A DNA stretch of 64,000 nucleotides, taken from NCBI GenBank assembly GCA_013286235.1, contig JABDGE010000001.1:23683-87682 (forward strand), read 5' to 3'. Origin of the DNA: Bacteroidota bacterium (lineage in GTDB: Bacteria; Bacteroidota; Bacteroidia; Sphingobacteriales; Sphingobacteriaceae). Shown here one piece after another: positions 16,361 through 18,038 of this stretch; within the stretch, counting starts at the first letter, position 1, and the number at the start of each line of letters is the position of its first letter. Below the pieces are notes generated by a model, which did no database searches, was not told the DNA's origin, and saw only the letters and a list, made by a program, of their open reading frames with translations. The translations under genes were made by a program, and so were the position numbers.

Positions 16361-16470
16361 TGATTTATAAAGAAGCGGCGAGAGATCAGGCTCAATGACC
16401 CGCTGGCAACCCTCCGGAAAGAGAAGGTGCCAATTCCTGGCCCGGTAAATATCCCGGGGAATATAAATTA
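16361..16470 (+). promoter_or_regulatory. SAM-I riboswitch
   Basis: Core GCGGCGAGAGATCAGGCTCAATGACCCGCTGGCAACC...AAGGTGCCAATTCC; closing helix TGATTTATA (16361-16369) / TATAAATTA (16462-16470); precedes metY-metX-hom. Confidence 0.92.
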
Positions 16471-16476
16471 TTAACC

Positions 16477-16593
16477 ATGAAAAGTTTAATTAAGATTCTT
16501 CTTCAGAACATTTTTAAGGCGAACAAACAGCCGCAACCTGCTTATTGCTACAGCTATTCCAATGGCTGTATGTGTATGTGCTGTTGCTGTTGA
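16477..16593 (+). CDS. putative Cys/Met-rich leader peptide (38 aa)
   Basis: ATG to TGA reads MKSLIKILLQNIFKANKQPQPAYCYSYSNGCMCMCCCC*; 7 Cys and 3 Met; 6 nt after the riboswitch closing helix; below ORF-track cutoff. Confidence 0.7.
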   Translation: MKSLIKILLQNIFKANKQPQPAYCYSYSNGCMCMCCCC

Positions 16594-16598
16594 TCCCT

Positions 16599-16640
16599 TA
16601 ACACGTTTTATTTTCTCCCTTTCCCGAAAAATACGTGTTA
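16599..16640 (+). promoter_or_regulatory. hairpin between the leader peptide and metY
   Basis: 8-bp perfect arms TAACACGT / ACGTGTTA plus A/T-rich inner pairing (TTTTATTTTC / GAAAAAT); begins 5 nt after the leader stop. Confidence 0.5.
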
Positions 16641-16712
16641 GCGCAAGGTGACCTTTTGCACCATTGTGGCCTGCGAAAAACAAATCCCTCAAAAACATTA
16701 AAACTTAATATT

Positions 16713-18038
16713 ATGTCTGCTGAAAACTTAAAATTCGAAACGCTTCAACTGCATGCCGGCCAGGAGGCCGACCCAACAACAGGTGCGCGTGCAGTGCCCA
16801 TTTACCAAACCACATCCTATGTGTTCAAGAACGCCGAGCATGGCGCAAACCTGTTCGCGTTAAAGGAGTTTGGGAACATCTACACCCGCATCATGAATCC
16901 CACCACCGATGTGTTCGAAAAACGCATTGCGGCCCTCGAGGGTGGTGTGGCGGCCCTTGCCACAGGATCAGGCCAGGCCTCACAGTTCCTGGCGCTGAAC
17001 AATATCCTGCAGGTCGGCGATAATTTTGTTTCTTCGCCATTCTTGTACGGGGGCACCTATAACCAGTTTAAGGTGGCCTTTAAACGGCTGGGTATTGACG
17101 TTCGTTTTGCAAAAGACGACACCGCCGAAAACCTGGAAAAGCTGATCGACGAAAAAACCAAGGCAATCTATCTCGAAACCATCGGCAACCCTGGTTTCAA
17201 TGTAGCCGACTTTGACAAAGTATCGGCACTGGCAAAGAAACATGATCTGCCGCTGATTGTGGATAATACTTTCGGCGCAGGCGGCTATTTGTTCAGGCCG
17301 ATCGACCATGGCGCTAACGTGGTAGTAGAATCCACCACCAAATGGATCGGCGGTCATGGCACCACTATTGGCGGTGTCATCATCGACGCCGGCAACTACA
17401 ACTGGGCAAACGGCAAATTTCCGCAGTTTACCGAGCCATCCGAAGGCTATCACGGTTTGGTATTTTCGAGCGTGTTTGGCATCGGCGGCCCATTCGGCAA
17501 TATCCAGTATATTATCCGGGCACGGGTAGAAGGTTTGCGCGATTTCGGCGCATCCCAGGCCCCATTCAACGCCTGGCTGAACATACAGGGGTTAGAAACA
17601 TTGTCATTGCGGGTACAACGCCATGTGGATAACGCGCTCGAACTGGCCAAATGGCTGGAACAGCAACCCGCCGTTGAAACGGTAAATTACCTGGGCCTGT
17701 CGTCGTCACCACATCATGCACTGGCTAAAAAGTATCTCAAAAATGGCTTTGGCTCCGTATTAACCTTTGAATTGAAAGGCGACAAGGAAAATGCCTCGGC
17801 TTTGATAAACAACCTGAAGTTGGTGAGCCATTTGGCCAATGTGGGCGATGCAAAAACGCTGATCATTCAGCCATCGGCAACTACGCACCAGCAGCTGTCG
17901 GACGAAGAGCAACTGTCGGCCGGTGTATTGCCAAACCAGGTACGGGTATCTGTTGGCCTTGAGCATATCGATGATATAAAGGCGGATTTTGAACAGGCAT
18001 TTGCAAAGATCAAGCAATTAGAAGAAGAACTAGTATAA
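16713..18038 (+). CDS. metY: O-acetylhomoserine aminocarboxypropyltransferase / cysteine synthase family PLP enzyme
   Basis: [39 protein letters not shown] motif [13 protein letters not shown]. The tracked upstream ATG (16635) is less likely. Confidence 0.9.

Follow-up and report, generated by a model that had tools for sequence, protein, structure and literature searches.

Layout of the metY leader

In the 64,000-nucleotide stretch of Bacteroidota DNA analysed here (the window), three genes follow one another on the forward strand, in the order metY-metX-hom that the original prediction, made from the letters of the sequence, had proposed. The first, metY (16713..18038), encodes an O-acetylhomoserine sulfhydrylase-type PLP enzyme of 441 aa (Pfam Cys_Met_Meta_PP, 5.6e-132). 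It is followed by a frame at 18060..19175, with a probable start at 18120, whose product is an alpha/beta hydrolase (Pfam Abhydrolase_1, 1.6e-14) and which was named metX, homoserine acetyltransferase type, on the basis of this fold and of the gene context. The third, hom (19175..20410), encodes a homoserine dehydrogenase (Pfam Homoserine_dh, 6.9e-48).

Several features lie upstream of metY, all on the forward strand. Reading of the sequence points to a candidate promoter of the Bacteroidota type at 16278..16310, with TTTG at 16278-16281 and TATATTTG at 16303-16310 separated by a spacer of 21; the sigma-A box given for flavobacteria is TAnnTTTG (PMC9723704). A SAM-I (S-box) riboswitch aptamer occupies 16362..16469, where cmscan matched the full RF00162 model (1-108) with 77.6 bits (cut-off 44.4; E 1.7e-16), and the two strands of its closing helix P1 are found at about 16362-16369 and 16462-16469. 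The aptamer had been recognised in the original prediction, but the end of its closing helix had been placed at 16470, one nucleotide too far. Seven nucleotides (16470..16476), which form the initiation region of a leader ORF, separate P1 from the ATG of that ORF. The latter comprises 38 codons (16477..16593; translation MKSLIKILLQNIFKANKQPQPAYCYSYSNGCMCMCCCC), and its product, which ends in CMCMCCCC directly before the stop, has no match in Pfam or NCBIfam.

Codons 31-38 of the leader ORF (16567..16590) read TGT ATG TGT ATG TGC TGT TGC TGT, so that each of the last eight codons specifies Cys or Met. A hairpin (16599..16640; arms TAACACGT at 16599-16606 and ACGTGTTA at 16633-16640) begins 5 nt after the stop and ends 72 nt before the metY ATG; it contains an inner stem with a U-rich and an A-rich strand (about 16611-16615 with 16626-16630). 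Part of the codon run (16571..16580) could alternatively pair with the 5' arm of this hairpin. No T-run terminator occurs on the forward strand between the leader ORF and metY, which makes Rho-dependent control of this leader a candidate. The eight terminal codons, both distances and the lack of a U-run terminator were all found as they had been described beforehand.

Conservation of the leader ORF

Dinucleotide shuffling of the 275-nt leader produced an ORF with at least 5 Cys/Met in 10 codons in 19 of 5,000 cases, and one with at least 8 in none (0/5,000). When the 38-aa peptide was searched against 60 related genomes, homologues were detected in the genus (Mucilaginibacter), and those above background sit between a SAM riboswitch and metY. 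One genome per species was further scanned (84,980 species) for a pattern in which the riboswitch core is followed, at the appropriate spacing, by ATGAAR and then by TGYTGY and a stop, which retrieved 96 stretches. Among the matches listed (80 of 96), every record is of the Bacteroidota type bar one titled only 'bacterium'; Mucilaginibacter dominates this set, in which Flavobacteriaceae, Saprospiraceae, Chitinophagales, Emticicia and Taishania are also represented. The Bacillota are rich in SAM riboswitches. The frame from the ATG to the Cys run is intact in 79 of the 80 matches listed, with metY next in nearly all. Between P1 and the leader ATG there are 7 nt in almost all of the Mucilaginibacter loci examined, with 8 nt in a single locus, and from 2 to 14 nt in other families.

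A wider sample was drawn by metY orthologues at the levels of class, order and phylum, together with their upstream DNA, and was thus not selected by the ORF. A peptide was scored when an ORF starting no more than 60 nt from the aptamer core had at least 5 Cys/Met, including at least 2 Cys, in 10 codons. By this rule a Cys/Met-run ORF is present in 42 of the 49 riboswitch-bearing metY leaders of the same family (ca. 0.12 expected by shuffling) and in 22 of 32 from other Bacteroidia, where 11 families have the ORF (ca. 0.03 expected). This amounts to 64/81 for Bacteroidia versus about 0.15 expected; in other classes of the phylum, none of the 21 riboswitch-bearing metY leaders has such an ORF. 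Conservation had been named as the check in the original prediction, and across Mucilaginibacter and many families of Bacteroidia the relatives retain the reading frame, its Cys/Met end and its spacing from the aptamer. Outside the family the ORFs end, for example, in QQPCCMCICCPCC, RMRMCCWCPCCC, MMMPMCCCCCSSC or FSTCCCCCC. The run is missing by the peptide rule from 17 of the 81 Bacteroidia leaders, or about a fifth, which indicates that the peptide is dispensable.

These final counts include three leaders that were rescored because inner false cores had mimicked peptide loss (L182, L264 and L270, the first two of which have the peptide), and exclude three others in which the metY start was unrecognised (L237, L257 and L274, with the peptide seen in two of the three). 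Riboswitch presence in the large metY table was defined by core-motif matching, a rule by which L300 and L305 appear riboswitch-less whereas cmscan finds them riboswitch-bearing; L305 has the peptide. Some variants were also observed. In three leaders of one genus of the same family (L164, L268 and L271; genus g39) and in L052 and L062, the ORF is in place with an Arg/Met tail (CCITRMR before the stop, MRMRM) and few Cys. The distance from the leader peptide to metY reaches 396-624 nt in L169, L283, L304 and L305, and in L304 an additional small ORF, read by eye and starting METFNTTSLNALNLLNDKQF, lies in this interval.

Within the ORF, conservation is uneven. Cys accounts for 62% and Met for 15% of the nine terminal codons across about 79 homologous ORFs, versus 1.3% and 0.6% elsewhere. 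The original prediction had proposed both residues as those being sensed; both do occur in the run, but their balance is in favour of Cys beside the riboswitch. The N-terminal sequence drifts while the Cys/Met tail is retained, as in leader peptides, and differences in the tail are concentrated at third codon positions whereas in the head all positions vary alike, which indicates that selection on the protein sequence acts on the tail, the remainder serving as a spacer. An RNA-level constraint acts on a piece of the run as well, since the wobble bases of an ATG-TGT-TGC segment are nearly fixed (TGT 47:1, TGC 47:2) whereas later Cys codons alternate freely between TGT and TGC.

The hairpin located after the stop is supported by covariation in Mucilaginibacter, the only group in which it was aligned, other families having different structures: 9 of its 12 pairs show two-sided changes with pairing kept, a result matched by 0 of 500 shuffles. 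The same hairpin is present in the predicted fold. The alternative pairing between the run and the 5' arm forms in 93.5% of cells across 51 homologues, without covariation, and a further pairing fits equally well. RNAalifold applied to 51 leaders gave a weak consensus in which the codon run pairs with the 3' arm of the hairpin; this was not retained, pair counts favouring the post-stop hairpin. Single-sequence folds from the aptamer to the ORF and from the tail to metY were not clearly better than those of shuffles (z -0.62 and -0.83).

Three architectures of metY leaders

Leaders of metY fall into three architectures. In the first (i), a riboswitch is followed by a strong terminator and no peptide, as in 14 of the 21 riboswitch-bearing leaders sampled in the phylum outside Bacteroidia. 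The second (ii) is the form of the window, with a riboswitch and a Cys/Met peptide but no terminator. In the third (iii), a Met/Cys peptide occurs without a riboswitch, whose absence was assessed by cmscan over ca. 1.2 kb for most leaders, and often with a terminator. No intrinsic terminator (GC hairpin plus U-run, -14 kcal/mol or stronger) was found in the 49 leaders of the family, whereas a GC hairpin with a U-run precedes metY in most riboswitch-less relatives that have the peptide. Counted by genus with a simple fold rule that also flagged codon-run hairpins (e.g. L280 and L289), a strong terminator occurs in 2/21 genera for (ii), versus 14/30 for riboswitch leaders without peptide and 7/12 for (iii) (Fisher p = 0.006 and 0.005, respectively).

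The terminators of architecture (iii) have a 5' arm complementary to the 3' end of the leader ORF, judging by eye and without scoring; examples are GUGUGAGAA with UUCUCAC in L312 and GUGUCUGGA with UCCAGACAC in L316. This complementarity is a candidate antiterminator, and it fits the canonical plan of an attenuator. That Met/Cys-run peptides form part of attenuators in riboswitch-less relatives argues that the run is a block of regulatory codons. Six riboswitch-less leaders (L288, L297, L315, L316, L317 and L318) carry two Met/Cys-run ORFs in tandem, and in L316 a separate GC hairpin with a T-rich tail comes after each of the two.

The composition of the run also differs between architectures. 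Met makes up 0.44 of it in (iii) versus 0.27 in (ii) (p = 0.012 by genus and 0.022 by family), and such a shift towards Met in leaders without a riboswitch would follow from a riboswitch that supplies the Met/SAM input. We read this as a division of labour, in which the aptamer reads SAM and the peptide mostly Cys, and in which the peptide reads both when there is no aptamer.

A proposed two-input leader and its alternatives

The aptamer, the conserved ORF with its Cys/Met run, the spacing from P1 and the hairpin are established by sequence comparison; SAM binding, ribosome stalling, its polarity and the final step to metY are inferred. It is likely that the region acts as a two-input 5' leader, in which SAM would gate translation of the leader ORF and stalling when charged tRNA-Cys, and also tRNA-Met, is scarce would turn metY on. 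With ample SAM, the aptamer would be bound and P1 stabilised, its 3' strand lying in the A/U-rich initiation region, and the leader peptide would stay untranslated. When SAM is low, the ORF would be translated, its end gauging charged tRNA-Cys and, secondarily, tRNA-Met. Ribosomes short of cysteine would then stall at the codon run and cover it, so that the post-stop hairpin could form and expression of metY-metX-hom be favoured. A leader left untranslated, or released quickly by its ribosome, would correspond to the OFF state, most likely through Rho-dependent termination or mRNA decay since there is no U-run terminator.

Both inputs had been put forward in the original prediction. Gating by SAM finds support in the end of P1, which falls so close to the leader ATG in the window and elsewhere. 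SAM-I switches that act directly on translation have their RBS within the 3' side of P1 (PMC2258182); here an initiation region does adjoin that side, and the start concerned is that of the leader ORF and not that of metY. Given this precedent and the 7-nt spacing, SAM would block the leader ORF rather than the metY start some 240 nt away. The pairing of SAM with charged tRNA-Cys/Met as a second input is supported, at the level of sequence, by the conservation of the leader and by the attenuators of riboswitch-less relatives. The latter also suggest the polarity, in which stalling switches metY on. The physiological sense of raising MetY, itself a competitor for sulfide, at low cysteine is nevertheless not obvious.

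The reverse polarity is rather unlikely. Stalling in cysteine-starved cells would let an inhibitory structure form and switch metY off, so that scarce sulfide goes to cysteine first and reaches MetY only once cysteine suffices. MetY and cysteine synthase compete for sulfide, and the conserved hairpin can form with the codon run occupied. Against this, riboswitch-less relatives have an ordinary attenuator layout, in which stalling would free the operon from a terminator, and the reverse reading demands that polarity flip between sister architectures on one gene.

It is also unlikely that the ORF is merely translated under SAM control, without a charging sensor, its translation protecting the transcript from Rho or RNases and its codons being retained for base pairing within the RNA or for an effect of the nascent chain. 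The nearly fixed wobble bases, which reveal the RNA-level constraint, would be in line with this explanation, as would M. tuberculosis, in which uORF translation controls genes behind B12 riboswitches with no reported codon gauge (PMC11260477). The Cys/Met composition nevertheless persists across families despite differing nucleotide context and downstream structures, and Met enrichment is higher where the riboswitch is absent; both argue against this explanation.

A functional small Cys-rich peptide that binds metal or thiols, rather than a cis-acting leader, is very improbable: the Cys-rich C-terminus is conserved and the ORF is kept over a wide phylogenetic range, yet the first two thirds of the peptide diverge without restraint, substitutions in the head favour no codon position, the run is variable in length and register, the ORF is tied to the riboswitch and metY, and no family matches it. 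Finally, a chance frame inside an ordinary SAM riboswitch leader can be dismissed with near certainty, for although short frames ending in Cys do arise by chance and the TGY4-stop motif is frequent in the genomes searched, such a reading is ruled out by the shuffles and by the conservation of position, frame and occurrence (64/81 observed versus 0.15 expected).

Several known systems share part of this layout. Polycysteine leader peptides of actinobacterial cys operons were reportedly described by Canestrari et al. in 2020 (cited in PMC13236596). These leaders resemble that of the window in having a short uORF with a Cys run beside the stop, located before genes of sulfur amino acid metabolism and lacking an evident intrinsic terminator, and Rho-dependent control has been suggested for them (PMC1262725). 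They differ in belonging to another phylum and in preceding cys operons rather than metY, and they are not known to be linked to a riboswitch, whereas the peptide of the window starts 7 nt after a SAM aptamer and includes Met codons. In M. tuberculosis (metE and ppe2; PMC11260477), a riboswitch controls translation of a short uORF, as proposed here, and for ppe2 the downstream gene depends on that uORF; there B12 is the ligand, the uORF of ppe2 overlaps the main gene and is coupled to it, and a codon run serving as second sensor is absent.

Classical attenuators (trp, his and ilv, as well as cysS with uORFC-8-2 in Rhodobacterales; PMC8632094) share regulatory codons for the relevant amino acid, and the riboswitch-less metY leaders of Bacteroidota match their plan, terminator and candidate antiterminator included; the window form departs from it by the SAM aptamer in front and by the lack of a U-run terminator behind. 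Leader-peptide attenuation has been predicted for flavobacterial amino acid operons (PMC9723704). Compared with S-box leaders, the window has a genuine RF00162 aptamer before a methionine gene, but the start of a leader ORF stands where a terminator or a sequestered main-gene RBS would usually serve as expression platform. Tandem riboswitches and riboswitch/T-box logic gates (PMC9481103) also place two RNA sensors in series in one leader, the difference being that here the second sensor would be a translated codon run and not an aptamer; leader peptides or uORFs are nowhere mentioned in that review. No prior description of a SAM riboswitch combined with a Cys/Met leader peptide was found among the open-licence papers searched, and an earlier description elsewhere is possible.

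The arrangement is real, conserved and unusual, and spans much of the class Bacteroidia; its mechanism is in part deduced. If it operates as proposed, one short RNA would combine two principles of regulation that are mostly considered separately, control by a metabolite riboswitch and the sensing of charged tRNA through the ribosome. We lean towards the view that the design is widespread in Bacteroidota, a SAM riboswitch having adopted a leader-peptide attenuator for its expression platform. The aptamer would determine if the Cys/Met gauge comes into play at all, so that metabolite and charged tRNA together act as a logic gate on metY; in leaders that lack the riboswitch the same slot would be occupied by Met/Cys peptides with terminators, and in those that lack the peptide by terminators only. 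Natural comparisons on one gene (riboswitch only, both, or peptide only) make the exchange and combination of RNA sensors testable. The effect of riboswitch-associated uORFs was not yet addressed according to a 2024 study (PMC11260477), and the present data suggest that riboswitches may often be followed by leader ORFs that have escaped annotation.

Other SAM riboswitches and Cys/Met ORFs were encountered outside metY leaders. The poly-Cys-stop motif, searched for in 41 genomes, was not specific enough for a regulon to be delineated. In the window's own genome, the third SAM riboswitch (G000:C177, L003) precedes a methionine synthase (metH-like) ORF, and no Cys/Met leader ORF was found in this leader. 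Another, on contig C16 of the same genome (L001; 77.6 bits, with a long insertion), is located at 1501-1648, directly upstream of a same-strand tRNA-Cys(GCA) at 1695-1766, with no clear protein gene downstream on the riboswitch strand within the locus. Two loci with SusC-like genes (L338 and L347) have poly-Cys ORFs and no riboswitch match. Finally, a second class of SAM riboswitch leaders, seen in seven loci (L037, L040, L043, L045, L047, L048 and L051), lies before TonB/SusC-like receptor genes and likewise has short ORFs with Cys/Met-rich tails, such as FRMRMPC, FRMCMSC or QGMRCCC before the stop; in some of these receptor leaders a hairpin with a T-run (CCTGTTAA...TTAACAGGCTTTTT) comes after the ORF.
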